Shown here: in pieces, positions 8,527 through 32,966 of the stretch
Layout: each line of letters opens with the position of its first letter
Position numbering within the stretch: position 1 is the stretch's first letter
Notes under the pieces: model-generated
Seen by the model: the letters and a program-made list of their open reading frames with translations, nothing else
What the model was told of the DNA's origin: nothing
Databases searched by the model: none
DNA from: an uncultured Actinomycetes bacterium
GTDB taxonomy: Bacteria; Actinomycetota; Thermoleophilia; RBG-16-64-13
Length of the DNA: 39,661 nt
Reading direction: 5' to 3'
Assembly: GCA_903873715.1 (NCBI GenBank)
Contig: CAIQPS010000160.1
Span: 1-39,661, forward strand
Translations under genes and position numbers: made by a program

Positions 8527-8687
8527 GCGAGGCCTCCGCTCAGGATCAGATAGGCGAACACGATGATGACCGCGCACGCCGCGGCGATGAGGGCCCAGAG
8601 GGCCACGACGGTCTTTCGGCCGCGCCGGACCTGCCGCTCGTCCTCCACGCTGTAGCGGGTGAAGCTCGGTGGTTGCACCGCGGTCAT
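8523..8687 (-). CDS. 54-residue single-pass membrane protein
   Basis: A short frame encodes MTAVQPPSFTRYSVEDERQ, then a basic segment (RRGRK), then one strongly hydrophobic helix (about residues 27-49) and a short GGLA end. The topology is N-in by the positive-inside rule. Its ATG overlaps the stop of the upstream flavoprotein gene as ATGA, and its TGA overlaps the ATG of the M24 peptidase in the same way. It fills exactly the gap between those genes, which is strong support for a real gene. It may anchor or regulate a neighbour; no family is recognised. Confidence 0.75.
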   Translation of the reverse strand: MTAVQPPSFTRYSVEDERQVRRGRKTVVALWALIAAACAVIIVFAYLILSGGLA

Positions 8688-9256: not shown

Positions 9257-9349
9257 GATGCCGCACCGCAGGACGTGGCAGTCAGGACTTGCGGTGCGCC
9301 GGGACGGGCGCCGGGCCCCAGGCCGGGCACGGCGCCGAGGGGCTGCCGC

Positions 9350-9925: not shown

Positions 9926-10050
9926 GGCCGACCCGTCGATGGTGTCCTCCTGTCGCTTGCCGGCAGCCTCTCGCCGCCCGTGGCGCCGGCGGCCCGATCG
10001 GCCGCAGGCTCACGTCCCCATACGTGGCTCATTGTAGTCGTTTTCTGCCG

Positions 10051-10062
10051 TATCATGCGCGT
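10051..10062 (+). promoter_or_regulatory. Possible -10 element for a leaderless nth transcript
   Basis: TATCAT at 10051-10056 matches five of six -10 bases and is followed by six bases and the ATG at 10063. That is the spacing expected of a leaderless mRNA. No Shine-Dalgarno sequence is present. A -35 element is not clear. Confidence 0.4.
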
Positions 10063-17290: not shown

Positions 17291-20200
17291 TGAAGCCCAT
17301 CGACATCCAGATACCGGTCGACTCCGACGCCCTCAGGGCGAACATCGGCAAGACGGCCCAACAGGTGGTGATCCCACCCCGGTATCTCCCGCTGGTGGAG
17401 GCGGTGCAGGGCTACTACGGCGTGCGCACCCCGCTCTCGGACACTCTCAGCGAGTACTTCCACACCTTCCGCAACGTCGACCTGCTCATCGACGGGTTCC
17501 AGACCATCCTGCTCCGCAACTGGAGCTATTTCGAGCGCTCGGACGACCGGGGGGAGCTCTTCACCCTGCTGTCCGAACTGGTGCTCGACCTGCTCGACAC
17601 CCCGCTGTCCACCCAGCAGACCTCGCTGCTCCTGCGGCAGCTCATCACCTGGAGCACGTCGGCCCTCTCCGGACCGCACCCCGACGCCTACGACGAGCCG
17701 CTCCGCACCATCGCGGAGACGCTCTGCCGCGAACTGCCGCTCCGGCCGTTCGCCTTCCTGGAGCGCGACACCCTCATCCACAACTTGGTGCGGCAGGCGG
17801 CCAAGCGGCCGGGGCTCGAGCCCGGCTTCTCCAGCCTGTTCCGCTCGCTCCTGCTCCTGGGCTACCGGCTCCTCGCGGAACGGCTGCCCATCCCGGCGTG
17901 GGCCATGTCGCCCGAAGCCGAGCTCACCGACAAGCCCGCCGTGGCCGGGCGGTTCCCGGAGCTGGCGCCCGAGGCCATGGCCGCGCTCATCGAGCGGGCC
18001 GAGACCGTGTCCGACCAGGAGTTGCTCGGCTCCGACCTGCCTGCCTTCTCCACGCTCCTCGACCGGGCGATCGACCAGGTGTTCCGCATCGACGACATCG
18101 AGGACCGCTTCGCCGTCTGCCTGTACTTCCTCAAGGACGACACTCTGGGGTACCGGCAGAACGAGGTGATGGTGGACCTGCTGGGCGTGGTCCGCCAGCT
18201 GATGTCCCCCGAGCGGCACATGGACGTGGACACCATCCTGGCCCGCCTCACCCGCTTCTTCCGCCAGCGCGACAACCAGTTCCTGCTGATGCGGTTCCAG
18301 TGCTACGAGGCGATCGGGGTCGCCATCGGGCAGGCGGGCAACGCGCAGGCTGCCGACCACTTGATCGAGGACGTGCTGTCCTGGAAGTTCCAGTACCCGG
18401 AGATCCAGGGCGCCACCGACGAGTGGGAGACGGTGGTCAACCCCTACCATCTGCCCAAGATCCGCTGTTGGATGCACATCATCGAGTCCAACCCGGCGCT
18501 CTACGAGCGGCTGGCGGCGGCCCTCAACGTGCAGCTGCGGCTGGGCGGCGTCTACATCGCCGACACCGACCTCTTCCAGCGCGACGTCACCCGCTTCCTC
18601 AACGCGGACATCCGGCCCATCTACTTCGTGGCCAAGCAGCTGCTGCGCGCCTTCCCCGTCTACTTCAACGACGTGGGCGCCGAGGGCGAGCTGCGGGCGG
18701 TCTCGACGGAACTCGACGAGATCTGCCAGCGGCAGGACACGCTCATGCACTTCCTGCGCAAGCAGTCGCACGCCGAGTCGTCCAACCGGCTGGTGGACTT
18801 CAGCCGGCAGGTGCTGGCCTATTGGGTCACGCTCGACCCGACGCCCCTGCAGCCCTACCTGTCGGCCAACACCTTCGCCGCGGTCAAGGAGGAGCGCACC
18901 TGGGCCATGCCGCCCCACGCGGTGCTCCGCCAGCTGGCCGCGGCCCTGGGTATCAAGACCAGGGCCAAGCCGGGCAAGCGCGCGGGCGCCAAAGCGGCGG
19001 CCGCGGCAGCTGCCGCCGCCGCGTCACCATCGGCCCCGCCCACCCAGGCCGCCACCTCGGGGCCGCACGCCGCCCCCTCCGCAGAGGCCGGTCCCGACTC
19101 GGTCGACGCGCTGCTGGACCACCTCGTCAAGCTCACCCCGGACGCGCTGACCGCACTCCTCGACACCCTCTACGACCACGAGGGCGACCGGGAGACCGCC
19201 CGCCGCAGGGTCGCCCTGATGGTGCGCACGCATCAGCTCCTCTACGAGAAGTACTCGCTGTCCCACGACAACATCGGCGGGGCGGTGAGCCGCCACCTGC
19301 AACTCGATCCCAAGGTCCGCGGCCGGTTCGTCAAGACGCTCGACGCCTGGCATGCCCAACCCGCGGCCGCGACCCGGGACCGCCTCGTCGACGCCTCGCT
19401 CACCGTCCTCGAGGACCTGCAGAAGATCATCCTCAGTGTGGGGCCGTCCGTGGCCGTGGAGAACATCTACCAGAAGCGGCACATCGCGGCCGGTATCCCT
19501 TCTATGTACGGCAACTACAGCGAGCCCAAGTTCGACGCGCTGGGGCTCTCGTTCCGGGTTGAGCGCCTGGTGGCCGTGCTCCTCGAGGACCTGGTCACCA
19601 CCGGCGTCGAGCCCTACGTCACCCGGGAATCGCTGCGGCGCATGGCTGCCGCCATCCGCCGGTTCGAGCGGGCCCTCGCCACCGACGGCGTCGACTCGCG
19701 CAACCTGGGCGCCAACCTGCGCCTGCTCGAATCCAGCTTCAGCAGCCACAACTTCACGTTCCACCAGTATCAGAACGTGTTCCAGTTCTTCATGGGCTCC
19801 GTGACCCAGCTGTCGCGGACCTCCATCCTCAGCCACGACCAGGTGCTGCACACCGTGCTCAAACACGACCCGCGGCAGTGCGTGGTGCGGTGTATGTCGA
19901 TAGACGCCGTCGCCGAGATGGTACTCCGAGAGGTGCTCGTGTCGGCCTTGGGCATGCAGACCCTGGACCGCTACATGTCCACGCTCATACGTCAGATCTC
20001 CACGCTCACCGACAAGCTGAGCAACCACGCGCTCACGCGGATGATGAACTACGACCCGGAGCGCCTGGTGTCGCGCATCCACAAGCACAACCCGCTCACC
20101 GACGACCAGATGACCCTGGGCTTCAAGGGCCTGGGCCTCAAGCAGATGGCGTCGTACAAGCAGCGGGTGCCGCAGGGCTTCATCCTCACCACCGAGCTCT

Positions 20201-21588
20201 TCAGCGCGATGCCGGCCATGGCCCATCGCCCGCTCTTCGACGACACGCTCGACCGGGTGCGCAAGGCCATCGACGACCTGGAACGCGAGACCGGCCTCCG
20301 CCTCGGCGACCCGGACCGGCCGCTCACCGTGTCGATCCGCTCCGGAGCAGCCATCTCCATGCCCGGGCTCATGACGACGTTCGTCAACGTCGGCCTCAAC
20401 GACAAGCTGGCGCAGGCTCTGTCGCGCAAGCCCGGCTTCGAATGGGCCGCCTGGGACAGCTACCGCCGCTTCCTACAGACCTGGGCGATGGCCGCCGGCA
20501 TCGACCGCGACGTGTTCGACGCCATCATGGTGGAATTCAAGGCCCGCTACGGCGTGGACCGCAAGTCGGACTTCCTGCCGGAGCACATGAGAGAGATGGC
20601 CTTCGCCTACAAGGAGCGGGGCCGGGAACTGGGCGTGCGCTACACCGACGACCCCTTCCGGCAGGTGGTGGCCTGCATCCGCAAGGTGCTGGGCTCCTGG
20701 GACTCCCCCGAAGCCAAGCTCTACCGGCAGTACCTCGGCGTGGCCGAGGAATGGGGCACGGCGGTGGTGATCCAGCGGATGGTGTTCGGCAACCTCAGCC
20801 GCGAATCCGGGTCCGGGGTCACGTTCACTCGCAACCCGCTCGAGCCGCACAGCAACCAGGTGCGGCTGTTCGGCGACTTCACCGCCCGCAGCCAGGGCGA
20901 GGACCTGGTGGCCGGCCTGGTGTTCCCGCTACCCGTGTCGGAGGCGCAGCGTCTCGGCAGCCCCACCTACATGGGCATCGAGCACTCCCTCGAGAAGGAC
21001 CACCCGGGCGTCTACCAGGCGCTGCTGGATGTGGCCCGCGACCTGGTGGGCCTGCGCGAGCACGACCCGCAGGAGATCGAGTTCACCTTCGAGTCGGACG
21101 ACCCAAGCGACCTGTACATCCTGCAGAAGCGGGCCATGGTGCAGGAGCAGACCACCGATTCGCCCTACTTCGACACTTCATCGAAGGCGTTCGGTCCTGC
21201 CGCCGCGGTGGGTATGGGAGTGGCCGGCGGGGCCTACGCCGGACGGGCGGCCATGAGCATGGCCCAGATCGAAGCGCTCACCGCCGAGAAGCCCGGCGAG
21301 CCCATCGTGCTGCTCCGCCCGGACACGGTGCCGGAGGACATCGCCATGATCACCCAGGTGTCGGGCCTGCTGACGGCTCGAGGTGGCGCCACCTCACATG
21401 CGGCCGTCACCGCCAAGCGCCTGGGCAAGACCGCCGTGGTGGACTGCCGCGCCCTCGAGGTCGACGAGCATCGCGGCGAGGCCCGCCTGGCCGGCCAGGA
21501 GATTAAGCCGGGCGACTGGCTCTCCATAGACGGCCGCACCGGCAACATCTTCCTGGGACGGGTGCCGACCATCGCGCGGGTGCTCTAG
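17290..21588 (+). CDS. Giant PPDK-related protein lacking the PEP/pyruvate barrel
   Basis: The 1432-residue protein has two parts. The first 900 or so residues are mostly helical, match no domain I recognise, and are broken by an Ala/Pro-rich linker (about 565-600). The C-terminal third follows pyruvate phosphate dikinase: GFKGLGLKQM near 942 with VPQGFILTTELF, then SIRSGAAISMPGLMTTFVN near 1017, WGTAVVIQRMVFGN near 1155, GVTFTRNPLEP near 1178, and the swivelling phospho-His domain with RGGATSHAAV (His near 1370). The protein ends shortly after this domain, so the TIM barrel that binds PEP or pyruvate in PPDK is absent. It should bind ATP and phosphorylate the His; the acceptor is unknown and may be recognised by the N-terminal region. 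ATG at 17290 is preferred; a GTG at 17287 is also in frame. Confidence 0.8.
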   Translation: MKPIDIQIPVDSDALRANIGKTAQQVVIPPRYLPLVEAVQGYYGVRTPLSDTLSEYFHTFRNVDLLIDGFQTILLRNWSYFERSDDRGELFTLLSELVLDLLDTPLSTQQTSLLLRQLITWSTSALSGPHPDAYDEPLRTIAETLCRELPLRPFAFLERDTLIHNLVRQAAKRPGLEPGFSSLFRSLLLLGYRLLAERLPIPAWAMSPEAELTDKPAVAGRFPELAPEAMAALIERAETVSDQELLGSDLPAFSTLLDRAIDQVFRIDDIEDRFAVCLYFLKDDTLGYRQNEVMVDLLGVVRQLMSPERHMDVDTILARLTRFFRQRDNQFLLMRFQCYEAIGVAIGQAGNAQAADHLIEDVLSWKFQYPEIQGATDEWETVVNPYHLPKIRCWMHIIESNPALYERLAAALNVQLRLGGVYIADTDLFQRDVTRFLNADIRPIYFVAKQLLRAFPVYFNDVGAEGELRAVSTELDEICQRQDTLMHFLRKQSHAESSNRLVDFSRQVLAYWVTLDPTPLQPYLSANTFAAVKEERTWAMPPHAVLRQLAAALGIKTRAKPGKRAGAKAAAAAAAAAASPSAPPTQAATSGPHAAPSAEAGPDSVDALLDHLVKLTPDALTALLDTLYDHEGDRETARRRVALMVRTHQLLYEKYSLSHDNIGGAVSRHLQLDPKVRGRFVKTLDAWHAQPAAATRDRLVDASLTVLEDLQKIILSVGPSVAVENIYQKRHIAAGIPSMYGNYSEPKFDALGLSFRVERLVAVLLEDLVTTGVEPYVTRESLRRMAAAIRRFERALATDGVDSRNLGANLRLLESSFSSHNFTFHQYQNVFQFFMGSVTQLSRTSILSHDQVLHTVLKHDPRQCVVRCMSIDAVAEMVLREVLVSALGMQTLDRYMSTLIRQISTLTDKLSNHALTRMMNYDPERLVSRIHKHNPLTDDQMTLGFKGLGLKQMASYKQRVPQGFILTTELFSAMPAMAHRPLFDDTLDRVRKAIDDLERETGLRLGDPDRPLTVSIRSGAAISMPGLMTTFVNVGLNDKLAQALSRKPGFEWAAWDSYRRFLQTWAMAAGIDRDVFDAIMVEFKARYGVDRKSDFLPEHMREMAFAYKERGRELGVRYTDDPFRQVVACIRKVLGSWDSPEAKLYRQYLGVAEEWGTAVVIQRMVFGNLSRESGSGVTFTRNPLEPHSNQVRLFGDFTARSQGEDLVAGLVFPLPVSEAQRLGSPTYMGIEHSLEKDHPGVYQALLDVARDLVGLREHDPQEIEFTFESDDPSDLYILQKRAMVQEQTTDSPYFDTSSKAFGPAAAVGMGVAGGAYAGRAAMSMAQIEALTAEKPGEPIVLLRPDTVPEDIAMITQVSGLLTARGGATSHAAVTAKRLGKTAVVDCRALEVDEHRGEARLAGQEIKPGDWLSIDGRTGNIFLGRVPTIARVL

Positions 21589-21631
21589 CGGCTTCGCAGG
21601 CCGGCGGGGCCGGGCGGTAAGGCGAGCAGGC

Positions 21632-22423
21632 CTACGGCACCACGCCCAAGTCAACATCTACGCCGGTGAGATCGGCAGTCACGTCGATCACTGTCGCGGC
21701 GTCGAAGATGTTACCGCCATCCCAGAACTGCGGCGTAGTCCCCCCGTTGAACGAGACTCCCAGCTTGTAGCGCCCGCGCAGCAGGCCCACGATCAGGAAC
21801 CGGGTGGAGACGCCGTCGGCCGTGGTGAGCAGGGTCGCCCGACGGAGCGTGTCGCGCTGCTGCAGATCGTAGGCCATGATGCTACCCGTGTGCCGGGCGC
21901 CGCCGCTCCACGTCACCTGCCCCTGGATGCTCAGCCCCGGCTGCATCACGAAGTCCAGCAGGTTGCGCCCGGGCACGACGACGAGCACCCGAGACTCGTA
22001 CACCTCGTGCCCTTGGACCGGGAGGCCTCCGTACCACTGCGAGACGTAGCCCGTCTGGCCGGCAAACACACCCAGGCGGTACCGGCCGGGCTGCAGCCCC
22101 TTGAAGGCGAAGCTGGATACCCCGTCTCGGCCGTCGATGAACGCTCCGGACTCGGTGAACAGGCCCACACGCAGAGAGCTCTTGGGATGCGAGGCCGCGA
22201 AAGCAGCCGAGATGTAGAGGTCGGCGGGGCCGGAGCCCGTCGTAGTGGTCCCCAGCCCACTCGGTTCGTCCGCTATCCCGGTCACGGGTGTCTCGCCTCC
22301 CGGCACCGTCGTGGTGCCGGGCGCCGAGTGGCTGCAGCCCGCGAGCGCCGGTGCGGCCAGCAGCAGCACGAGAGCCCAGCAGGTGGCTATCAGTCTGATG
22401 AGCACGGTGCGCGAGCCATCCAT
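21632..22423 (-). CDS. Secreted lipoprotein with beta-sandwich (carboxypeptidase-regulatory-like) repeats
   Basis: The 263-residue protein has a lipoprotein signal peptide with lipobox LAGC at about residues 27-30. A Thr/Gly/Pro-rich linker follows (about 33-65). Two repeats then share the motif FKGLQPGRYRLGVFAG / IVGLLRGRYKLGVSFNG, each followed by QWYGG or QFWDGG. This is the signature of beta-sandwich carboxypeptidase-regulatory-like domains found in cell-surface proteins. It is expected on the outer face of the cytoplasmic membrane. GAGAGGAG precedes the ATG. It lies 12 bases after the cation transporter gene and is probably in the serpin operon. Ligand unknown. Confidence 0.7.
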   Translation of the reverse strand: MDGSRTVLIRLIATCWALVLLLAAPALAGCSHSAPGTTTVPGGETPVTGIADEPSGLGTTTTGSGPADLYISAAFAASHPKSSLRVGLFTESGAFIDGRDGVSSFAFKGLQPGRYRLGVFAGQTGYVSQWYGGLPVQGHEVYESRVLVVVPGRNLLDFVMQPGLSIQGQVTWSGGARHTGSIMAYDLQQRDTLRRATLLTTADGVSTRFLIVGLLRGRYKLGVSFNGGTTPQFWDGGNIFDAATVIDVTADLTGVDVDLGVVP

Positions 22424-22435
22424 GAAGCGCTCCTC

Positions 22436-23083
22436 TCAGTCGTCGGCCGTCTCGGCCTCGAAGGCCTCCCGGCCTTCCACCACCAGGAACGGGATCAGCG
22501 CCAGGGCCGCGGCGCTGTCCAGCCACCACCATCCGAACGCGGCTGACAACGCCAGCCCGACGAGCAGCACCGCAGAAAGGTAGGCGCAGCTGAGGGCTTC
22601 ATCCGAATCGGCGCGCAGCGCGGGTGAATCCAGACGGTCGGACGCCGCCAGCCGTCGCTTGGTGTGGGCGAGGATAGGCATGCCGATGACCGCGACGACG
22701 GCGATCGCCAACCCCCACACGCTCGTGTCCGCGTCCGCCCGGTGTCCGGCCACCAGCCCGTAGACGGAATACGCCAGGATGTACGCCGCCAGCGCGAACA
22801 GCAGGCCACCGGCCACGCGGGCCGTAAGGCGTTCGACCCGCTCGATGTTCTCCGGGCCGGCGTCGCCGCGCAGTTCCCAGCGGAACCGCAGGAGCAACAC
22901 GACGGCACTCGCCAGTTCGATGAGGCTGTCGATACCGAACGCCAGCAACAGCAGGCTGCCCGACAGCAGACCCAGGGCGACGGACGCGGCGAACTCGACG
23001 GTCATCCAGACCAGCGTCAGGTATTCCAGGCGCACCGCCTCCCGCAGCAGCCGCTTTCTTTCGCCGGACATCGCGGGTCTCAT
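22436..23083 (-). CDS. Small cation-diffusion-facilitator-like transporter
   Basis: The 215-residue protein has six predicted membrane helices arranged like the CDF membrane domain and no C-terminal cytoplasmic metal-binding domain. In helix 2 the usual DxxxD is Asp52-x3-Glu56 (FGIDSLIE). In helix 5 the usual HxxxD is replaced by Glu162-x3-Cys166 (DEALSCAYLS), so metal choice may differ from Zn. WWLDSAAALALIPFLVVEG matches CDF helix 6. It is known that shortened CDF-like proteins occur; transport by this one is inferred. The ATG overlaps the stop of the serpin gene by four bases, so the two are translated together. MSGERKRLL four codons downstream is an alternative start. Confidence 0.75.
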   Translation of the reverse strand: MRPAMSGERKRLLREAVRLEYLTLVWMTVEFAASVALGLLSGSLLLLAFGIDSLIELASAVVLLLRFRWELRGDAGPENIERVERLTARVAGGLLFALAAYILAYSVYGLVAGHRADADTSVWGLAIAVVAVIGMPILAHTKRRLAASDRLDSPALRADSDEALSCAYLSAVLLVGLALSAAFGWWWLDSAAALALIPFLVVEGREAFEAETADD

Positions 23084-24363
23084 GACCCGTGGCGGCTTGG
23101 ATCGGTCACCTGTCCCAGGAACAGGATGGCGCCGGTCTGCCGGTCCCGTATCAGGAAGTAGAAGGGCCGGTCGACGGCCAGGAGCACCTCGTCCTGCGAT
23201 ACTCCGGCGGTGAACGTCACCGTCGCGCCTGCCGCGGCCTCCGTGCCCGCCTCGTCGACCAGGACGAAAGCCTCTTCGCCCACGCCTGAGATCTCAGTCT
23301 GCTCGCTGGTCATCCCGGAGAAGTCCGCCGTCTTCGCCGAGAAGGCGGCCACCAGACCCAGGCCCCGGAGCGGGGCCTTCAAGTCGACGGAGGACGAGAA
23401 GGTGAACCGGGGAAGCTGGAGGGTGACGTGCCGGGTAGCCAGCGCGGCGGTGATCTCGTCGACCCTCTCAGATGTAAGGGCCTCGCCCACCTCTCCGAAC
23501 CCTCCCGCAGCCGGGAGGACCACCATGAAGGACAGCCGCCCATCATCGTACGGCACGTCGATAGCCTGCAGACCGTCGCCCTCCATGTAGTCGTACTCGT
23601 CGCGGAGACCGCACATGGTCGGCACCCTTATCTCCGTCCCGTCCGGCAGGCGGAAAGGCAGGTCCCTGGTGAGACTGGGCTGGAAGGGCTCCTCCCACTT
23701 CGCCTTCATGTAGGCGGCGGTGGTCAGCATGAGCACGGTCTTGTCGGCGCGGGGCCCGTCAGGATCGACCGCCTGAGGGATGCGGCCGTTGGTCGCGTCG
23801 TACATCCACTGGTTGATGGTCTGCGCCGCGGCGGCGTAGTCGTCGAAGTCGACCAAGCGGAGCGGGGCGCCGTAGGTCCTGCCGAGCAGGTCCACGAACG
23901 CCTTCTGGTAGGGCATGCCGGCCTGCCCCCAGAGAGCGGAGGCGGGAACGAAGTCCGCGATCTCCGAAAGGGACACGTCGAGAGCGCCCAAAGCCGGGTA
24001 GAGGCTGGCGTCCGCGAGGTCCGCGTGAAGGACGGTGCGGAATTCCTGCTCCGTTTGCCCCCTCGCCCCGGCCATGGCCAAGGACAGCACCGTCGACACG
24101 GCGTACGGGGAGCACACGAAGTTGCCGTCGGCGGGCCGGATGACCCCGAACAGGTCCAGGGCGAAGGCGTTGCCGCCCGATGCCACCGCGGCGATATCCT
24201 CCATGGCGTGCGAGGAGGGCTTGGTCTGCGCCGGGCCCTCGAGGACGGGCGCCTTGCTGCCCCCACTCCCGCATCCCGCGACGAGCAGCCCGAGGGCGGC
24301 GAGAAACATCAGCCCCGCCACGACGGCGAGCGCACCCTGAAGCGGAAAGCCGGACCGGTTCAT
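23080..24363 (-). CDS. Serpin-family protease inhibitor, lipoprotein
   Basis: Serpins trap serine or cysteine proteases through a mobile reactive loop. The 427-residue protein has a lipoprotein signal with VAGC near residue 31, followed by the full serpin fold: NFVCSPYAVSTVLSLAMAGARG near 82, FVDLLGRTYGAPL, TAAYMKAKWEEPF near 218 and the C-terminal DRPFYFLIRDRQTGAILFLGQV. The hinge (EAGTEAAAGA near 368) keeps the small residues of inhibitory serpins. Counting 17 residues from the hinge Glu puts P1 at or near Gly in TFTAGVS, suggesting an elastase- or subtilisin-like target; this is approximate. The protein would be membrane-anchored outside the cell. GGAGGGGTGAG precedes the ATG. It begins a three-gene minus-strand group. 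Confidence 0.9.
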   Translation of the reverse strand: MNRSGFPLQGALAVVAGLMFLAALGLLVAGCGSGGSKAPVLEGPAQTKPSSHAMEDIAAVASGGNAFALDLFGVIRPADGNFVCSPYAVSTVLSLAMAGARGQTEQEFRTVLHADLADASLYPALGALDVSLSEIADFVPASALWGQAGMPYQKAFVDLLGRTYGAPLRLVDFDDYAAAAQTINQWMYDATNGRIPQAVDPDGPRADKTVLMLTTAAYMKAKWEEPFQPSLTRDLPFRLPDGTEIRVPTMCGLRDEYDYMEGDGLQAIDVPYDDGRLSFMVVLPAAGGFGEVGEALTSERVDEITAALATRHVTLQLPRFTFSSSVDLKAPLRGLGLVAAFSAKTADFSGMTSEQTEISGVGEEAFVLVDEAGTEAAAGATVTFTAGVSQDEVLLAVDRPFYFLIRDRQTGAILFLGQVTDPSRHGS

Positions 24364-26028: not shown

Positions 26029-26562
26029 TCAGTCTCCCGGGACGGTGACGAGTTCCGGGACGGCCCGGGGTGCGGCATCGGCATCGCCCGGTCCGGCGCC
26101 CTCGCGGGCGGGAAGGATGGCGACCCGCATCATGGTCCGCGGCCGCCCGAAGCGCCGCGGCCCTGCCGAACCCGGGTTGATGTGGAGCACACCGTCCTTC
26201 TCGTCTTGCGCAGCGATGTGGCTGTGGCCGGCGACGACGACCACCGGGCCGCCGGGGCGACCGGCACCATCGGGCCGCGGGGAGATGTGCGCCACCACGA
26301 AGCAGACGCCGCCGATCTCGACCTCGGCCCGCGACGGCAGAGCATCCGCCCAACCGCCCACATCGACGTTGCCGCGCACGGCGGTGACCGGAGCTATCTG
26401 GCGCAGGGCCCTGAGGACCTCGGAGGTGCCGACGTCGCCGGCGTGAAGGATGTGGTCGACACCCCGGAGACGCTCCACCACTTCCGGGTACAGATGGCCG
26501 TGCGTGTCGGAGACGACGCCGATGACGAGCGGGGCGCTGTGAGCGCCGGCGGTCGAGCTCAT
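26029..26562 (-). CDS. Calcineurin-like metallophosphoesterase (YfcE/MJ0936 type)
   Basis: The 177-residue protein has the dinuclear metal signature of small phosphoesterases: SDTHG near residue 17, HAGDVG near 40, RGNVD near 63, VAHIS near 91 and GHSH near 112. Family members hydrolyse phosphodiesters such as cyclic or bis-p-nitrophenyl substrates; the natural substrate is unknown. A Pro/Gly-rich stretch between VAHIS and GHSH replaces the more usual short loop. The start at 26562 (MSSTAGAHSAPLVIG) lies seven bases after the stop of the iron-sulfur gene, so it is probably the last gene of that operon. An in-frame upstream start would overlap the previous gene and give an atypical leader. Confidence 0.85.
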   Translation of the reverse strand: MSSTAGAHSAPLVIGVVSDTHGHLYPEVVERLRGVDHILHAGDVGTSEVLRALRQIAPVTAVRGNVDVGGWADALPSRAEVEIGGVCFVVAHISPRPDGAGRPGGPVVVVAGHSHIAAQDEKDGVLHINPGSAGPRRFGRPRTMMRVAILPAREGAGPGDADAAPRAVPELVTVPGD

Positions 26563-26569
26563 CGCGCGC

Positions 26570-27736
26570 CTACTCGAGGTCCTCGTCGAAGAGGTCTTCG
26601 CCGAACAGGTCGTCACCCAGGTCGTTGCCCGGAGGAAGGTGGCCGTGGTCCTGGGCGTAGCGGGCCAGCAACTCGCTCTCCCGCTGGGTGAACAACTCCG
26701 CGCGTTCGAACCACAGCCGGGACGCGGATGCGCAGGTCGCCTCCATGAGGGCGGCGATCACCCCGCGGGAAAGGTCGGCCACGCCGGCGATGCGCAGCAC
26801 CTGTCCTGTGGAGTCGGCCAACTGGAACACGCCGGGAACGGGCGGGATGGCGGCCAGTTCGTCCTCGGTGAGCCACCGCCAGGAATCGGGCGGGAGCACC
26901 GGAGACGCGACAGGGCTCTTCTTGCGGCAGTTCTCGAGCCAGCGAGCGCCGGCCTCTCCGGGCGCCGTCACCGCCCCGGTGGGACAGACCATGACGCACT
27001 GCCCGCAGAAGGTGCAGCCCGACGCCCGCAGCGTGCCTTTCACCGGCAGCGCCCGGCAGCGCCCGCCCGCGTCGGGGATGGCCCCGCGCTGGATGGCCGC
27101 CAGGCCTGCCTGGCCGGTGGCGGCGGGGGCGACTATGTCCTCCATCTGCAGCGCCGACCCTGCGAAGGGCGAACTTGCGCAGATCATGACGCATCTGCCG
27201 CACCCGATGCACAACCCCTGCTCACGCCTGATGCGCCCCTCGTCGTGGGCCTCCCGCGGCACCACCGCAGCCCAGCGGCGCAGCTGCAGCCCAGGGTCGA
27301 TGTAGGCGACCAGCTTGCCCAGTTCGCACCGCCCGAACTCGCTGCAGCACCGGCCCTCCACCGGCACGCCGAAACGGCACTCCTCGCGGGAGCAGCCGTC
27401 GCGGTCGGGGCAGCTGAGGCAGATGTGCGGATGATGGTCCAGGATGTCGGCCAGGCGGCGCAGCCGATCGGCGTGGAGGGCCGGACCGGAAGTGGTGATG
27501 TCCATGCCGGGCCGCACAGGCATGCAGCAGGAGAGCGTGGGGACGGGCTCCGAGTCGCGTCTGCCGCCGGTCACCTCGACCACGCAGAGCCCGCACGAGA
27601 CCCCGAGTTCGCCACCGCAGCCGATCCCGGGGTAGGAGCACAGGCGGGGGACGTATCTACCGGCCAGGTCGCAGGCCTGGAGTATGCTGACGCCCTCCGG
27701 GACGTTGAGGGCGACGCCGTCTATGCGAACCTGCAT
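26570..27736 (-). CDS. [2Fe-2S]/[4Fe-4S] electron-transfer protein with GIY-YIG-like tail
   Basis: The 388-residue protein starts with a plant-type [2Fe-2S] domain: Cys33, Cys48, Cys51 and Cys70 or Cys71, plus an extra Cys40. A NuoG/HydA-like His-Cys3 cluster segment follows (DHHPHICLSCPDRDGC, near residue 100). Two bacterial ferredoxin motifs come next (CIGCGRCVMIC and CTFCGQCVMVCP). Residues about 297-388 are different: PGVFQLADSTGQVLRIAG and ERAELFTQRESELL resemble a degenerate GIY-YIG fold, ending in an acidic tail. It should carry electrons between a donor and the neighbouring ferredoxin or ATPase proteins, in the cytoplasm. No flavin or NAD site is visible. The gene follows the ferredoxin gene by six bases. 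Confidence 0.75.
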   Translation of the reverse strand: MQVRIDGVALNVPEGVSILQACDLAGRYVPRLCSYPGIGCGGELGVSCGLCVVEVTGGRRDSEPVPTLSCCMPVRPGMDITTSGPALHADRLRRLADILDHHPHICLSCPDRDGCSREECRFGVPVEGRCCSEFGRCELGKLVAYIDPGLQLRRWAAVVPREAHDEGRIRREQGLCIGCGRCVMICASSPFAGSALQMEDIVAPAATGQAGLAAIQRGAIPDAGGRCRALPVKGTLRASGCTFCGQCVMVCPTGAVTAPGEAGARWLENCRKKSPVASPVLPPDSWRWLTEDELAAIPPVPGVFQLADSTGQVLRIAGVADLSRGVIAALMEATCASASRLWFERAELFTQRESELLARYAQDHGHLPPGNDLGDDLFGEDLFDEDLE

Positions 27737-27742
27737 GGCCGC

Positions 27743-28036
27743 CTACCAGCTGTGGCGGAGGGCGCCGCCCGGACAGGCGGCGGTGCAGGGCAGCTTGCGC
27801 TCGGTGCCGCCCGATCCGTTCTGGGCCTTACAGACGGAGCAGAGCTCGCGCAGACGCTTGCGCGCCCCCTCGGCGACGGTGCAGACGAAGTCGTCGTAGT
27901 CGTCCATCTCCACGGCGAAGACGTTGCCGGGGCAGACCTTGGTGCACCCGTACTCGGTGCAGCCGATGCAGATGTCGGTATCGACCGTGATGTAGTAGAA
28001 GCCGGAGCCGTCCTCGTAGCCATAGTTGGCGATCAT
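27743..28036 (-). CDS. Two-cluster ferredoxin
   Basis: The 97-residue protein has nine cysteines: Cys23, Cys26, Cys31 and Cys35 (CIGC then CTKVCP), Cys52, Cys66 and Cys69 (CSVC), and Cys84 and Cys88 (CTAACPGGAL). This supports two [4Fe-4S] clusters with long spacing between the halves, unlike a compact 60-residue ferredoxin. The start codon at 28036 overlaps the TGA of the upstream ATPase gene by one base. Its place between a BzdQ-like ATPase and a multi-cluster protein suggests it is the direct electron carrier for the ATPase-driven reductase, comparable to the ferredoxins in benzoyl-CoA reductase operons. That role is inferred from context. Confidence 0.8.
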   Translation of the reverse strand: MIANYGYEDGSGFYYITVDTDICIGCTEYGCTKVCPGNVFAVEMDDYDDFVCTVAEGARKRLRELCSVCKAQNGSGGTERKLPCTAACPGGALRHSW

Positions 28037-29013
28037 CAGCCCGCGACCCCCGCGCCTTCGCCTGCCGGTTCGGCGGCGCCACCGGGCGTCCCGCCGTTGC
28101 CGGGCGCAGTCCCGCCGGCGGCCGCCGCTTCCTTCTGGGCCTTGCGGTACAACGAATGGGCGAAGAGCGATGCACCCAAGGCACCGGCGATCTGCGGGTC
28201 GAGCACCGAATCCGCGGGAAGCTTGATCGCCTCCACCCCGATGAGCCGCTCGATCCGCCGTGTCACCCCGATGTTCTTGCCGATGCCGCCGGTGATGAAG
28301 AACTCGCGCTCCACCTGCATCCGTTCGATGAGCCCGGCCACGCGCTGGGCCATGGCGGCGCAGTAGGCGGCGAGCACCTTGTTCACGCTCCAGCCCGCGC
28401 GCAGCAGCGAGGTGGCCTCGGACTTGGCGAAGACCGTGCAGACGTTGCTGACCGCCGCGGGTTCCTCGTCGATCTCGAACGAGCGCCGCCCGATGTCCTC
28501 GATGGGCACCGACAGCACGTCCGCGATGACCTCCATGCCCCGGCCGGTCCCGGCCGCGCACTTGTCGTTCATGATGAAGTTCAGGACCTTGCCCCGCTCG
28601 TCGATGCGGATGACCTTGCAGTCCTGGCCACCCATGTCGAGGATGGTGCGGATGCTGGGGCCTCCCATGTGGTTGGCGCCGCGGGCGTGGCACGCGATCT
28701 CGGTGATGGTCCGGTCCGCGAAGGGCACGTTCACCCGGCCGTAACCGGTGCCGACCGCGTAGGAGATGTCGTCGAGCGTCAGCCCGATGGGCTCGGCCGC
28801 ACCGCGGAACGCGCGCAGGGCACTATCCGGGCTGGACGAACCGGTGCGGGTTGAATTGAAGGCGAGGAGCTTGCCGTCGGCCAGGATGACCGCCTGCGAA
28901 CTGACGGACCCGACGTCGACGCCTACCGTGATGCTGGAGGCCGCCCGCCAATCAAGGTCAGGGGCCTGGTAGGTCTTCTCGCTCCACCGCCAAAAGTGCT
29001 GGGTCTCTGTCAT
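28036..29013 (-). CDS. bzdQ: BadF/BcrA/HgdC-type ATPase, BzdQ-like
   Basis: These ASKHA-fold ATPases hydrolyse ATP to push a low-potential electron onto a dehydratase or reductase. The 325-residue protein has the phosphate motif GVDVGSVSSQAV at residues 31-42 and the ADP-binding TILDMGGQDCKVI near 123. Cys152 (NDKCAAGTG) and Cys192 (SNVCTVFAKSE) are the ligands of the subunit-bridging [4Fe-4S] cluster. RTGSSSPDSA and GTGYGRVNVPFADRTITEIACHARGAN read like the Q/A subunit of class I benzoyl-CoA reductase. About 35 extra N-terminal residues and a Gly/Ala/Pro-rich tail are additions. A second, different ATPase lies upstream, as in bzd/bcr operons. Exact substrate remains open because the catalytic subunits are not in the window. 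Confidence 0.82.
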   Translation of the reverse strand: MTETQHFWRWSEKTYQAPDLDWRAASSITVGVDVGSVSSQAVILADGKLLAFNSTRTGSSSPDSALRAFRGAAEPIGLTLDDISYAVGTGYGRVNVPFADRTITEIACHARGANHMGGPSIRTILDMGGQDCKVIRIDERGKVLNFIMNDKCAAGTGRGMEVIADVLSVPIEDIGRRSFEIDEEPAAVSNVCTVFAKSEATSLLRAGWSVNKVLAAYCAAMAQRVAGLIERMQVEREFFITGGIGKNIGVTRRIERLIGVEAIKLPADSVLDPQIAGALGASLFAHSLYRKAQKEAAAAGGTAPGNGGTPGGAAEPAGEGAGVAG

Positions 29014-29062: not shown

Positions 29063-29280
29063 TATGTAGTCCTCTGACGAGCGCGGTCCACAGCCGTTGG
29101 CCGCTCGACGTCGTGCTCGCAGATCTGGAGACTGCGGGCCTACCGGTCTTTTCTCTGGTGCGGATGAAGCTGTTCACGCTCGATGATCGCGTGGTCGTCA
29201 GACAGCTCGGCCATCTGGGCCCAGAAGACCGCGCAACGGCCTCGGCAGCTCTCTGCGTGTTGCTGGGTGGAGTGAACTAG
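29053..29280 (+). pseudogene. Remnant of a MazF/PemK-type toxin gene
   Basis: The plus-strand frame from 29053 to the TAG at 29278 encodes a C-terminal MazF-like piece. It includes SRWPLDVVLADLETAGLPVF, SLVRMKLFTLDDRVVVRQLG and a final helix (EDRATASAALCVLL). These match the last two thirds of PemK/MazF endoribonucleases, where LDVVL-DW--AGLP and VRMKLFTLD are characteristic. The first 40-50 residues are missing: an in-frame TAA at 29050-29052 sits inside the inverted repeat, and there is no plausible start. No antitoxin gene is adjacent. It is antisense to the surrounding operon, and its TAG overlaps the TAG of the bzdP-like gene (CTAG). It is probably non-functional debris. Confidence 0.65.
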
Positions 29281-30053
29281 GAAGCGCTCTCCCAGGCTAT
29301 CAGCGCCGCGCCGAGCGCGCCCAGGTACTCGGCATCCGGCAACACCTCCACGTTCACACCGCCGAGCGCCTCGGACAGGGACTTCACGAAGCCCACGTTC
29401 AGCGCCGCGCCGCCACCCAGCACCACCGGGTCGTCGACCCCGATGCGCCGCACCATCGCGGACACGCGGCTGGCCATGGCATCGTGGACCGCACGGGCGA
29501 TGTCGGCAGCGGGGGTGTTGGCGTGGATGAGGCTGACCACCTCTGACTCCGCGAACACCGTGCACTGAGCGTTCATCGGGATGGACTGGGTCGACCCGAG
29601 CGACGAGGTGGCGAAGTCACCGAGGCTCATGTCGAGAGCGCGGCTCATGGCTTCCACGAAGGCGCCGGCACCTGCCGCGCACTTCTCGTTGATGGCGAAG
29701 TCGAGGACCTTGCCTTCGGGGCTCAGCCTGATGGCCCGGGCTTCGTCGGCGCCGACGTCGATGACGGTGCGGGCCCCGGGGCGCAGCTTCGCGGCGCCCC
29801 GCCCATCGGCGAGGACCTCGGTAGGCTGCTGCCCGGCGATGGCAAGGGCTTTGCGCCCTGCGCCGGTGGCGGCGATCGCCTGGATCGCCGACCGGTCTAT
29901 GCCGGCCACCCGTGCGGCCTCCTGCAGGCCCCGCTCGGCGGATTCCTCCTGGTCGAACCCCGACACCACGGCGGCCTTGGCCAGGACGACCCCGTCCTGG
30001 ATGAGCACGGCGTGCACGTTCTTGGCTCCGACATCGATGCCGGCAACGATCAT
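29277..30053 (-). CDS. bzdP: BadF/BcrA/HgdC-type ATPase, BzdP/BcrD-like
   Basis: This 258-residue protein is a second ASKHA-type activator ATPase, clearly distinct from the BzdQ-like one. It begins MIVAGIDVGAKNVHAVLIQDG and has VIDVGADEARAI near residue 97. The cluster-ligand cysteines are Cys125 (NEKCAAGAG) and Cys164 (NAQCTVFAESE), with the usual spacing of about 40. The AKNVHAVLI variant of the phosphate loop is typical of the D/P subunits of class I benzoyl-CoA reductases, which pair with A/Q subunits as a heterodimer. The internal ATG at 30053 is chosen: GGAGGG precedes it and it removes a non-homologous leader. It follows korC by 47 bases. Confidence 0.78.
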   Translation of the reverse strand: MIVAGIDVGAKNVHAVLIQDGVVLAKAAVVSGFDQEESAERGLQEAARVAGIDRSAIQAIAATGAGRKALAIAGQQPTEVLADGRGAAKLRPGARTVIDVGADEARAIRLSPEGKVLDFAINEKCAAGAGAFVEAMSRALDMSLGDFATSSLGSTQSIPMNAQCTVFAESEVVSLIHANTPAADIARAVHDAMASRVSAMVRRIGVDDPVVLGGGAALNVGFVKSLSEALGGVNVEVLPDAEYLGALGAALIAWESAS

Positions 30054-30100
30054 TCTCGGTCCCTCCGCGATCTGAGCGCCACGCCGTCCGGCGGCGCCTC

Positions 30101-30751
30101 TCAACGGTCTCGCAACGCCAGTCCGCGGGCGAGAGCCTTGCTGTTGATCTCCTCCGTGCCTGCGGGCACCATCACGAGGACCGCCTTGCGTAGCGACTCC
30201 GCAGTCACCACGCCGGTGATACCCGCGACGGCCCCCAGGGTGAGGATGTTCGCCGTCTGCTTCCGCCCGGTCTCTTCGAACGCCAGGCGGGTGAACGGGA
30301 TGCCGAACTGCTCCCCCTTGAACGGCGGCACGGCCGTCACGTTCTCGGAGTCGTAGACCAGCACACCGTCGGAGCGTAGCACGCGGATGTATTCGTCGGC
30401 AGACGCTTGGTTGAGCGCGACGAGCAGATCGGCATGTTCGAGCTCGGGATAGTCGATCTGCGCGTCGGAGATGATGACGTCGCTGCGGCTGTAGCCGCCC
30501 CGGGCCTCGGGGCCATAGGACTGGGTCTGGACGACGAACCGGTGGTCGCGGGCCCCGGCCATCGCCAGGATGACCCCCATGAGGATGACCCCCTGCCCGC
30601 CGCTGCCCCCGAACCTCACCTGCACCAGGTCGCGACCGGCGAGCAATCCGGTGCGGTCCACCGCCGAGGCGCGCGCTCGCTCGGCGCGCGCCGCCTGTGC
30701 GGCCTTGCCCCCGCCGGCCCCGGCGCCCGGCGCGCCCGCGGTGGCGCTCAT
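30101..30751 (-). CDS. korC: 2-oxoacid:ferredoxin oxidoreductase, gamma subunit
   Basis: The 216-residue protein has the gamma-subunit fold of 2-oxoacid:ferredoxin oxidoreductases. RFGGSGGQGVILMGVILAMAG lies near residue 46, QTQSYGPEARGGYSRSDVIIS near 74, and LVALNQASADEYI near 108. It helps bind CoA and completes the heterotrimer with the alpha and beta subunits. The first 40 residues are Ala/Gly-rich and extra to the family. The start ATG at 30751 overlaps the korB stop as ATGA. A delta (ferredoxin-type) subunit is missing from the cluster; the 97-residue ferredoxin downstream may replace it. Confidence 0.88.
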   Translation of the reverse strand: MSATAGAPGAGAGGGKAAQAARAERARASAVDRTGLLAGRDLVQVRFGGSGGQGVILMGVILAMAGARDHRFVVQTQSYGPEARGGYSRSDVIISDAQIDYPELEHADLLVALNQASADEYIRVLRSDGVLVYDSENVTAVPPFKGEQFGIPFTRLAFEETGRKQTANILTLGAVAGITGVVTAESLRKAVLVMVPAGTEEINSKALARGLALRDR

Positions 30752-31704
30752 TCCCCGCCCTCCAGAGGCAGCCCGGAGGCGTCGGCGGCCTCGCCGTTGC
30801 GGGCGGGCGGACGTTCGGGCGCGGTCTTGCGGGGCTTCCTCGGGGCAGCGGGCTGTTTCGGCCGGGCCGGCGCCTCGGCGGCCCCGGCCTGCGCCCGCTC
30901 GACTATCGCGGCATAGGCGGACTGGAACTCGGGTGCCTCGTCGTCCTCGTACAGGATCCCGGTCACGATCTTGTCCCGCAGTTCGTCGGGCGTCATCTTG
31001 GCCGCCGCCGTCACGGATATCGACCTGGCTTTGGTGTCGTCCAGCATGGCTATCACGCCGGCGGGCGGGTTCCGCTTGCCGTATTCCGTCGGGCAGGGGA
31101 CCACCGCTTCGATGAAGGAGAACCCCTTGTGCTGGATGCCCTGCTTGATGAGCCGTTCGAGCGGCCGGATGTTGGCCGCGATGCCCCGGGCCACGAAGCT
31201 CGCCCCCGCCGCTTCCGCCAGCCGGCAGAGGTCGAAGGACGGTTCGATGGACCCGTACGGGGCGGTCGTCCCCCGGTCGCCGGGGTCCATGGTGGGCGAC
31301 ACCTGGCCGCCGGTCATGCCGTAGGTCTGGTTGTTGAACAGGATGCAGGTGATGTCGATGTTGCGCCGGCAGGCGTGGATGAAGTGGTTCCCCCCGATGG
31401 CCGCGCCGTCGCCGTCGCCGGTGAGCACGACCACGGTGAAGTCGGGCCGGGCCATCTTGATGCCGGTCGCGAAGGCGAGCGCCCTCCCGTGGATAGAGTG
31501 CACCGTCCCCAGGTCGATATAGCCGACAGCCCGGCTCGAGCAGCCGATCCCGCCGACCACCACGGTCTTTTCGCGCACCAGCCCCAGGTCGAGCACGGCC
31601 CTGAGGAAGGCACCGGTCACGATGCCGTTGCCGCACCCCGGGCACCAGATGTGGGGTAACCGCTCGGTGTGGAGGAACTGCTCGATGTCGAGGACTTCAG
31701 ACAC
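30748..31704 (-). CDS. korB: 2-oxoacid:ferredoxin oxidoreductase, beta subunit
   Basis: The beta subunit binds thiamine diphosphate and the catalytic [4Fe-4S] cluster. The 318-residue protein shows WCPGCGNGIV (Cys21, Cys24), GGIGCSSRA near 52, and the ThDP/Mg motif GDGDGAAIGGNHFIHACRRN near 95. The later cluster cysteine is in VVPCPTEYGKRNPPA near 204. The last 60 residues form a Lys/Pro/Ala-rich extension absent from most relatives. The protein converts 2-oxoglutarate or another 2-oxoacid with CoA to acyl-CoA, CO2 and reduced ferredoxin; substrate choice is inferred from the KorAB-like sequence. It overlaps both neighbours (8 bases with korA, 4 with korC). Confidence 0.92.
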   Translation of the reverse strand: MSEVLDIEQFLHTERLPHIWCPGCGNGIVTGAFLRAVLDLGLVREKTVVVGGIGCSSRAVGYIDLGTVHSIHGRALAFATGIKMARPDFTVVVLTGDGDGAAIGGNHFIHACRRNIDITCILFNNQTYGMTGGQVSPTMDPGDRGTTAPYGSIEPSFDLCRLAEAAGASFVARGIAANIRPLERLIKQGIQHKGFSFIEAVVPCPTEYGKRNPPAGVIAMLDDTKARSISVTAAAKMTPDELRDKIVTGILYEDDEAPEFQSAYAAIVERAQAGAAEAPARPKQPAAPRKPRKTAPERPPARNGEAADASGLPLEGGE

Positions 31705-32875
31705 TCTCGTACTTCCCGACGAGTTCGGTCACCCGGTCGAGGATCTCCCGCGGGGTGATGAGGGTCCCGTCGATCTTGCCCATGCTGATGACCGTGGTCC
31801 AGTTCTCCGCCATCTTGCGGACCTCGCGCGCATACTGCCCCAGGTTCAGCTCGGGGATCAGCATGAACTCCACCCGCCGGGCCACCTTCTGGATGATCTC
31901 CACCGGCAGCGGGAACAACGTGTAGAGGTGGAGCACCTCCACCTGCAGCCCTTCCTTCTCGGCCAGCTTCCAGGCCGCCCGGGCACTCCGCGCGCACGAC
32001 CCGTACGCCACGATGCACACCCGGCCCTTGCCCTCGTTCTTGACGTCGTAGAGGCAGAGCTCGTCGCGGTGGTTGCCGACCTTGTCGTAGAGCTCGCGCA
32101 GGAACTTCTCGCTCTTCTGCGGGTCGTTGGTGGGGAAGCCGGTCTCGTCGTGGATGAGGCCGGTCACGTGAGGATGCGCCTCCGACCCGAGCACGTGCGG
32201 TGGATGCACCTCCCGCACCAACTCAGGATGGATGTAGCTGGGGCTGAAGTCGAAATCGCCGCTGGTGAGCCGGTACCGGTCGATGAGCTCGGGCGCGAAG
32301 CTCTCGCGCATGTGGCCCACCACCTCGTCGGCAAGCAGGGTCACCGGCGTGCGGAACCGCTGCGCGAAGCGCACGGCGGCCATGGTAAGCCGGTACATGT
32401 CCGCCACGTTGGAGGCTGCGAGCACCACGGCCGGGTGGTCGCCGTGGGTGCCCCAGCGGGCCTGCATGACGTCACCCTGCGACGGTGCGGTGGGACGGCC
32501 GGTGGAAGGCCCGGCCCGCATCACGTCCACGATCAGAAGAGGCGCCTCCACCATGATGGCGTAGCCGATGGCCTCCTGCATCAACGAGAACCCGGGGCCC
32601 GAAGTGGCCGTCATGGCCAGCTGGCCCGCCAGCGACCCCCCGATGCACGCGCAGATGGACGCGATCTCGTCCTCCATCTGCAGGAACACGCCGCCCACCT
32701 TCGGCAACTCGACGGCCATGGCCTCCATGATCTCGGAGCTGGGGGTGATGGGGTATCCGGCGAAGAAGCGCACGCCGGCGTCGAGGGCCCCGAGAGCGCA
32801 CGCCCGGTTCCCCTGGATGAGCATGCTGCTGGGGTCGATCTTTTCGCGGAGCACGTGTGTGTGCCAGCGTTCCAT
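31697..32875 (-). CDS. korA: 2-oxoacid:ferredoxin oxidoreductase, alpha subunit
   Basis: The alpha subunit is 392 residues from ATG 32875. It starts with the pyrimidine-binding domain (LIQGNRACALGALDAGVRF near 19, FAGYPITPSSEIMEAM near 38, MEDEIASICACIGGSLAG near 65). DVMRAGPSTGRPTAPSQGD near 115 and the C-terminal VCIVAYGSCARSARAAWKLA near 285 complete the KorA pattern. Together with KorB it makes low-potential reduced ferredoxin. The start is chosen because codons upstream would place the N-terminus inside the promoter-like region. GAGGAG lies only two to three bases before the ATG. It leads the minus-strand operon korA-korB-korC-bzdP-bzdQ-ferredoxin-FeS-phosphoesterase. Confidence 0.92.
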   Translation of the reverse strand: MERWHTHVLREKIDPSSMLIQGNRACALGALDAGVRFFAGYPITPSSEIMEAMAVELPKVGGVFLQMEDEIASICACIGGSLAGQLAMTATSGPGFSLMQEAIGYAIMVEAPLLIVDVMRAGPSTGRPTAPSQGDVMQARWGTHGDHPAVVLAASNVADMYRLTMAAVRFAQRFRTPVTLLADEVVGHMRESFAPELIDRYRLTSGDFDFSPSYIHPELVREVHPPHVLGSEAHPHVTGLIHDETGFPTNDPQKSEKFLRELYDKVGNHRDELCLYDVKNEGKGRVCIVAYGSCARSARAAWKLAEKEGLQVEVLHLYTLFPLPVEIIQKVARRVEFMLIPELNLGQYAREVRKMAENWTTVISMGKIDGTLITPREILDRVTELVGKYESV

Positions 32876-32916
32876 CGCTCCTCGAGTGTAGCACCGCGAC
32901 AGGTAGGGCCTGTCAC
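32876..32916 (-). promoter_or_regulatory. korA promoter candidate with 17-bp dyad
   Basis: On the minus strand an extended -10 (TGCTACACT, 32893 to 32885) lies nine bases before the korA ATG. GTGACA (32916 to 32911) could serve as a -35 with a long 20-base spacer. GACAGG (32898-32903) and its inverse CCTGTC (32909-32914) form a perfect dyad in the spacer, a likely regulator site for the whole redox operon. Confidence 0.4.
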
Positions 32917-32966
32917 ACGAGGCCACCCGCCCGTGGGCTCATGGTGGCACCGCGCAGGCCGCGCGG

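Follow-up and report, generated by a model that had tools for sequence, protein, structure and literature searches.

Why does an iron-sulfur electron carrier end in a domain with the fold of a nuclease? The question is raised by an open reading frame on the reverse strand of a 39,661-nucleotide contig from an uncultured actinobacterium; we refer to this whole stretch of DNA as the window. The reading we favor, with moderate confidence, is that the encoded protein is a flavoprotein-less form of BzdV, acting as the Fe-S wire of a BzdPQ activase system and ending in a non-catalytic GIY-YIG fold and an acidic tail that most likely dock on a partner. The computations show how the protein is built, its predicted fold, the missing catalytic residues, the gene neighborhood, the shared tail and purifying selection; electron flow, docking and the identity of the receptor are inferred. 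In the literature that we found, the route of electrons to the activase of a bzd-type benzoyl-CoA reductase is inferred rather than demonstrated, and a pseudo-nuclease domain on the donor, together with a tail common to the donor, the reductase and a small protein, would provide concrete handles on partner recognition.

A short BzdV-like protein encoded with bzd-type activase genes

The 388-residue protein (P0001; positions 26570..27736, reverse strand) is specified by an open frame that translates as the first-pass annotation described, and it contains the [2Fe-2S] domain, the NuoG-like segment and the two ferredoxin motifs that were noted there. The [2Fe-2S] domain (residues 2-83; 27488..27733, reverse strand) matches Pfam Fer2_4 with 47.4 bits against a cut-off of 22.8, and its Cys33, 48, 51 and 70 are invariant in a 24-row alignment (A4). 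A NuoG/HydA-type His-Cys3 cluster segment (His102, Cys106, Cys109 and Cys115; 27392..27445, reverse strand) is recognized by its invariant residues and by a weak Pfam match, below the cut-off, to residues 98-115. Two 4Fe-4S motifs occupy residues 176-255 (26972..27211, reverse strand), where the Fer4_7 and Fer4 matches, both above their cut-offs, fall within residues 176-257. In the 24-row alignment, the presumed cluster cysteines and His102 are invariant. Overlooked in the earlier description were four more invariant cysteines (Cys 120, 130, 131 and 137; 27326..27379, reverse strand), which are possibly the ligands of one more cluster, and an acidic C-terminal tail of the form DDLF...EDLF (26573..26623, reverse strand), identified from low pLDDT in the models and from the tail counts given below.

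Among solved structures, the closest relatives of the N-terminal part are the Fe-S modules of HydA1, NuoG and the formate dehydrogenase FdhA, and the 50 PDB matches listed for the full-length model are complex I and hydrogenase chains. The window protein has the same [2Fe-2S] and His-Cys3 arrangement as the N-terminal modules of HydA1, NuoG and FdhA (8a6t, 7q5y, 6tg9), but lacks their hydrogenase, formate or quinone parts. Cluster geometry was not read from the full-length model because pLDDT is low at approximately residues 101-140 and 201-220.

The genes around this frame are transcribed on the reverse strand in the order korABG-bzdP-bzdQ-bzdM-bzdV, followed by a YfcE-type phosphoesterase gene. 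The 2-oxoacid:acceptor oxidoreductase alpha subunit (31697..32926) matches POR_N and scores 478 bits with NF006412 against a cut-off of 411. The beta subunit (30748..31704) and gamma subunit (30101..30625) of the 2-oxoacid:ferredoxin oxidoreductase exceed the cut-offs of TPP_enzyme_C and POR, respectively, with their best NCBIfam models scoring below cut-off. A BzdP-like activase (29277..30104), whose start is probably internal, matches BcrAD_BadFG and CoA_E_activ above cut-off and holds the same place in three related loci (L021-L023). The BzdQ-type activase (28036..29013) scores 418 bits with TIGR03192, above the equivalog cut-off of 380; an activase of this type is a feature of the bzd-type benzoyl-CoA reductase system. 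Next to the carrier gene lies a BzdM-like ferredoxin of 97 residues (27743..28036), with a Fer4_6 score of 25.3 bits against a cut-off of 25 and the same N- and C-terminal pattern as its relatives. The downstream phosphoesterase gene (26029..26616; TIGR00040 above cut-off) also adjoins the short BzdV gene in L021-L024, and the order of Kor, activases, short BzdV gene and YfcE is conserved in L021-L023. The TIGR03192 score and the loci of relatives support the bzd-type activase neighbors that had been proposed for this gene. Like BzdV, the window protein carries a NuoG-like Fe-S module with two 4Fe-4S motifs and is encoded with bzdP, bzdQ and bzdM.

In the accessible text of two publications, BzdV is described as a putative NADPH:ferredoxin oxidoreductase (PMC5658619) and as part of a ferredoxin-regenerating system with korAB (PMC5736913). 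Neither the translation nor a Pfam search reveals a GltD-like FAD/NAD(P)H module in the window protein, which therefore should not use NADPH itself. Low-potential electrons would instead be released by the KorABG 2-oxoacid:ferredoxin oxidoreductase and would pass through the BzdM-type ferredoxin, the clusters of the short BzdV, or both, to the ATP-driven BzdPQ activase, which in turn would energize an enzyme of the 2-hydroxyacyl-CoA-dehydratase/benzoyl-CoA-reductase type. The flavin half might be dispensable where Kor makes reduced ferredoxin, and the role of the GIY-YIG-fold domain and the acidic [DE][DE]L[FY] tail would be to hold the electron carrier on its partner.

The enzyme that the window system may serve

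The only PF06050 matches in the genome of the window belong to a divergent pair of HGD-D genes on another contig (C134, approximately positions 20970-23492; positions 34-2556 of the extracted locus L018), one subunit of which carries a long Asp/Leu tail. This pair has no TIGR03190/03191 match at E 1e-10 (0.01 for the second subunit), and the models used detect neither BzdN nor BzdO in this genome. The ring hydrolase Oah, which scores above cut-off in 7 of 18 genomes of the family, is likewise not detected above cut-off in this genome (best score 87 of 464 bits). Because BzdN and BzdO are not detected and Oah stays below cut-off, benzoyl-CoA may not be the substrate of the window system. The divergent pair is a possible new activase-dependent reductase or dehydratase.

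Whether the Kor-BzdPQ-M-V module in the clade of the window serves this divergent enzyme instead of a benzoyl-CoA reductase is, in our estimation, evenly balanced, and such a role would be compatible with docking. Consistent with this assignment, 12 of the 18 genomes of the family contain the divergent pair, BzdQ scores above cut-off in 11 of these 12, and a CoA_trans gene pair lies 3.6-5.5 kb from it on C134; the pair as the sole HGD-D match and the lack of an Oah match point in the same direction. Conversely, the BzdQ model scores above its equivalog cut-off, one family genome (G076) encodes a true BzdN alongside the divergent pair, and the assembly of the window is 96.9% complete, such that genes may be missing from it.

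The carboxy-terminal domain has a predicted GIY-YIG fold

Approximately the last 90 residues of the protein had been likened to a GIY-YIG fold from their sequence. Structure prediction and a fold search with residues 281-388 support this view at the level of prediction. The AlphaFold2 model, built with an input alignment of 76 sequences, is compact and has a pLDDT of at least 90 in 79 of 108 residues. Its secondary structure, in domain numbering, comprises strands at 22-27 and 33-39, a helix at 42-50, a strand at 60-65 and a helix at 69-84. We place the degenerate, DUF7508-like domain at residues 281-371 (26624..26896, reverse strand) on the basis of the predicted fold, the fold search and profiles.

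The best ten rows of a Foldseek search against the PDB are the N-terminal domain of GRXS16 (2lwf) and nine UvrC GIY-YIG chains, with E-values from 7.9e-4 to 5.3e-3. VIA returns Z-scores of 10.8 for UvrC 1yd6 (83 aligned residues, 2.5 A), 9.7 for GRXS16 2lwf (97 aligned, 5.4 A) and 9.5 for UvrC 1ycz. EndoII, PD-T4-3, I-TevI and R.Eco29kI follow at 4.4 to 6.1, with EndoII and PD-T4-3 being proteins that we take to be GIY-YIG members, and the first row outside the GIY-YIG nucleases has a Z of 3.5. By this predicted structure, the domain has the three-dimensional fold of the GIY-YIG superfamily.

Profile comparisons lead to the same group of proteins. The sequence profile of the domain reaches 2lwf at E 0.017, covering positions 14-92 of 97, and hhalign aligns the domain with 23 UvrC domains at a probability of 75% (E 2.5e-5, 41 columns). 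The register of the latter alignment agrees with the first-pass assignment of GVF to the GIY position and RIAG to the YIG position. Pfam DUF7508 (PF24348), a family named as of unknown function and a relative of the window domain, matches 74 of the 76 domain copies with E-values no higher than 0.1. The window copy scores 23.1 bits against a gathering cut-off of 26, and the homologous domain of a Tectomicrobia BzdV (L064) scores 33.9 bits. Other DUF7508 matches in the genome of the window, also below cut-off, are a UvrC gene on contig C3 (18.8 bits) and a UvrC-like gene on C141 (20.2 bits). Our literature search found no paper that names DUF7508 and none that brings GIY-YIG together with benzoyl-CoA. 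A match to 8fje (E8; hmmsearch E 1.9e-5) was rejected as a relative, as it consists of four short repeats, none of which is significant alone.

Arabidopsis GRXS16, the top Foldseek row, shares with the window domain the ending TQ...G-x-[LV]-P-P-G-N, and is a redox/Fe-S protein as well. Its GIY-YIG domain is N-terminal and fused to glutaredoxin, whereas that of the window protein is C-terminal.

The domain recurs in BzdV and mostly tracks the reductase

The fusion had been regarded as odd, a judgment that is not supported: the same domain ends BzdV-type proteins and short forms, it matches DUF7508, and GRXS16 offers a precedent on a redox/Fe-S protein. Relatives occur in 10 of 299 genomes of a class sample at E 1e-40, the genome of the window included. 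Among 396 genomes of a phylum sample, the domain is found only in the genome of the window, which signifies rarity and not absence, and a plasmid search with the domain gave no match. An alignment of the class-sample relatives was scanned over genome contigs, and 80 loci were used of 127 relatives; L008-L016 and L021-L029 denote one and the same set of contigs. The domain model matches 76 of the 80 loci, nine of which are contigs from which the model was built. Our alignment of 76 domain copies (A2) comprises 75 loci and the window. Five loci stand outside it: L038, L081 and L090 are truncated by contig ends, and L091 and L098 are complete without the domain.

Two forms of the protein can be distinguished. 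The 11 short forms (345-420 residues) come from Actinomycetota metagenome-assembled genomes (MAGs; L021-L029) and from two unclassified MAGs. In the 69 long forms, which measure approximately 811-879 residues when complete and with the domain (64 proteins), a GltD-like part lies between the Fe-S module and the terminal domain. The start of this part is visible in the L032-L100 sequences, and a family search confirmed a full FAD/NAD(P) module in both proteins tested (L064 from Tectomicrobia and L059 from Aromatoleum evansii). In BzdV of A. evansii, the GltD-like module that the window protein lacks spans residues 247-718. Judged by place and architecture, the long relatives are BzdV, and the terminal domain is thus found in Betaproteobacteria and in a Tectomicrobia MAG at the end of BzdV-type proteins, as well as in the Actinomycetota short forms. 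The window protein shares with BzdV of Azoarcus/Aromatoleum the Fe-S N-terminal module (34-39% identical in the best segments of L032-L100) and, encoded with bzdPQM, the C-terminal domain and DDLF tail, for which identity is 37-42% in five loci.

The survey of homologs that had been suggested as a check thus finds the fusion repeatedly, with a BzdQ-type gene in the examined DNA of 61 of the 80 loci. Matches of a BzdP query near 32% identity are cross-matches of the BzdQ activase and were excluded from counts. Three loci without a BzdQ-type gene (L056, L067 and L070) have neighbors that, by eye, look like later ring-pathway genes, and the locus DNA examined for two short forms (L026 and L027) contains no activase. 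Of the genomes that correspond to 40 of the 80 loci, 38 contain the domain; each has a single copy in a frame the size of BzdV, except one genome (G669) with two. This count excludes frames of 615, 706 and 980 residues with weak matches to the domain model, which are likely UvrC.

Does the domain serve a purpose of its own? Among 28 pairs from eight Aromatoleum/Azoarcus genes, dN/dS is 0.056 for the domain and tail, 0.056 for the GltD-like part and 0.12 for the Fe-S part. This purifying selection implies that the terminal domain does something in Aromatoleum. The domain is kept both with and without the flavoprotein half, and therefore does not need that half. The BzdV tree has no outgroup and was rooted at its midpoint, so that short and long forms may differ through either a loss or a gain of the flavoprotein half.

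The two complete BzdV relatives that end before the domain and have no tail (L091 and L098, from Nitrosomonadales/Sideroxyarcus MAGs) nest inside the long group, with support of 99/92 for that fork and 84/83 for the nearest fork, and neither of their genomes yields a match to the domain or to BzdN. BzdN is found above cut-off in 34 of 40 genomes. Four other domain-bearing genomes comprise two with pieces of BzdN (G692 and G660) and two with only paralogue-level matches to the BzdN model (G679 and G680). In three genomes of the family of the window (G034, G058 and G064), BzdQ and BzdM occur together with a BzdP-type activase, but the BzdV domain is missing, which indicates that the carrier is dispensable there. 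The L091/L098 pattern and these three genomes together show that the terminal domain mostly tracks the reductase, yet is not indispensable to the activase. In the same three genomes (loci L178, L179 and L180), the neighborhood with BzdQ, BzdM and GAPDH is retained and the BzdV gene is missing.

The absence of the domain from two genomes without BzdN matches, and the sharing of the C-terminal tail described below, lead us to favor docking as the most likely function of domain and tail. An unlikely alternative is that the domain merely caps BzdV structurally or helps it to fold, and binds no partner itself, so that the tail alone, or nothing, docks. Strong purifying selection would fit such a structural role equally well, as would retention of the domain with and without the flavoprotein half. 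For a purely structural part, however, one would not predict that the absence of domain and tail coincides with the absence of BzdN matches in two of two cases.

An acidic tail shared by BzdV, BzdN and a small cysteine protein

The sequence [DE][DE]L[FY], DDLF or a near variant, occurs within the last 15 residues of 74 of 76 domain copies. We find, as a new observation, that this C-terminal tail is common to BzdV, BzdN and a small Cys protein. With L, F or Y allowed and up to 3 further residues, it is present in 71 of 77 BzdV and 42 of 45 BzdN proteins (exceptions, 6/77 and 3/45), and a DELF-type tail occurs on 48 of 58 small Cys proteins encoded beside bzdM or bzdV. By comparison, the tail is absent from BzdO (0/47), BzdP (0/54), BzdQ (0/60) and BzdM (0/63). 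Among 22 clusters of open reading frames with at least 15 members, three carry the tail, and none of 1855 frames in the other 19 does; since the clusters merge overlapping frames, each was scored simply as having or lacking the tail, and the three cluster names derive from example sequences. In the solved structure of BzdN (8s02), which ends in EEELF, our alignment extends to the last residue; the accessible text of the BzdNO structure paper (PMC11971306) contains no discussion of the tail that we could find.

The small Cys protein has a GCNTCFDAG motif and is encoded, for example, at positions 6399-6680 of L061 and 9110-9412 of L028, with further relatives elsewhere. Two representatives that were tested gave no Pfam or NCBIfam match. 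This protein is probably BzdS, to judge by the gene order bzdNOPQMSTUVWXYZA as given in the accessible part of the source.

The family of the window has an expanded tail on the short BzdV (DDLFGEDLFDEDLE) and on the divergent HGD-D subunit. A tail of the form [DE][DE]L[LF] ends 9 of 11 such subunits in this family (G092, in which the frame is broken, was omitted), compared to 0 of 14 in a chosen set of other HGD-D paralogues that does not include every HGD-D gene.

Because BzdV, BzdN and the small Cys protein bear the same tail, all three may use one receptor. The putative receptor that we favor as first candidate is BzdPQ, which must meet both the donors and BzdN; the complex of BzdPQ with BzdNO is probably transient, according to the accessible text of PMC11971306. 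The BzdV domain itself is unlikely to be the only receptor, since three genomes have tailed HGD-D subunits but no BzdV domain. A more specific scheme, possible although we lean against it, would have the three tails form a code that is read by one receptor, perhaps BzdPQ, with donor and acceptor alternating on the activase and the dead GIY-YIG domain acting as a platform that presents the tail of the donor.

Eukaryotic cytosolic Fe-S clients bear a C-terminal targeting tripeptide. The tail could by analogy direct the maturation or targeting of proteins that receive Fe-S clusters and not be a docking peptide, as its presence on two Fe-S proteins (BzdN and BzdV) and the small Cys protein might suggest. 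We regard this explanation as quite improbable: BzdO, BzdQ and BzdM, which are Fe-S proteins by literature and motifs, lack the tail, and the [8Fe-9S] cluster was present in BzdNO that Escherichia coli produced from a plasmid with bzdNO (PMC11971306, accessible text).

Catalytic residues of the nuclease fold are absent

The catalytic residues of UvrC serve here as the reference for judging the state of the BzdV domain. The Tyr of the YIG motif, the Lys and the Arg at their places, and a Glu at residues 357-361, are each found in 0 of 76 domain copies versus all four in 23 of 23 UvrC controls from related genomes. There is no YIG-motif Tyr at residues 312-318 in any of the 76 copies, and residue 325, at the place of the Arg, is G, S or A in all of them. 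The YIG motif could also be placed one residue along (IAG or IKG in the role of YIG), but Tyr, Lys and Arg are absent from their places in either register. For the Glu, the ungapped alignment with 2lwf supplied the position, which was widened to 357-361. Some elements are partly retained. The place of the GIY Tyr holds Y in 23 of 76 copies and F or L in 53, as in GVF of the window; the late Asn place holds N in 10; and a Lys precedes the Lys place by one residue (residue 317) in 62, although not in the window.

According to the accessible text of PMC1564403, the GIY-YIG superfamily is marked by its fold, the Tyr residues of GIY and YIG, a central catalytic Arg, a C-terminal metal-binding Glu and nuclease activity. 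The window domain has the predicted fold of the UvrC endonuclease (1yd6 and 1ycz), with the first 41 columns aligned without gaps, but not the catalytic residues that UvrC retains. Given that all four tested residues are missing from every copy and present in every UvrC control, a canonical GIY-YIG cut by this domain is unlikely, and the protein probably ends in a nuclease-type fold without catalytic residues, that is, a pseudo-nuclease. If true, this would be a GIY-YIG fold in a redox protein in which all four tested catalytic places have been lost.

The comparison with GRXS16 calls for some caution. In the alignment to 2lwf, GRXS16 has F in place of the YIG Tyr and S in place of the Arg, and nonetheless is reported, in the accessible part of a review, to have endonuclease activity. 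Hence, loss of the YIG Tyr and Arg alone is not proof of inactivity, but GRXS16 has a Glu where the BzdV domain family has none. That the domain still binds or cleaves nucleic acid, for example as a redox-controlled nuclease like that proposed for GRXS16, in which the Fe-S half would act as redox sensor, has the fold in its favor. So does the fact that, of all solved proteins, GRXS16 comes nearest in sequence over the full domain and is reportedly active under control of a disulfide between its two domains (same review). This reading is nevertheless highly improbable given that all 76 copies have lost the Tyr, Lys, Arg and Glu, and given the BzdQ-type genes near 61 of 80 loci and a domain alignment in which no Cys is invariant or nearly so.

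Other genes in the window

Elsewhere in the window, long open reading frames at 8669-10150 (forward strand) and 37646-39646 (reverse strand), which have no Pfam match at 1e-3, may be unassigned genes or antisense frames. A 1433-residue protein (17287-21588, forward strand) combines PPDK ATP-binding and PEP-utilizer mobile domains with a long N-terminal part that has no assignment. This bacterial genome also encodes, at 23080-24363 (reverse strand) of the window, a serpin-family protease inhibitor with a lipoprotein-like start.
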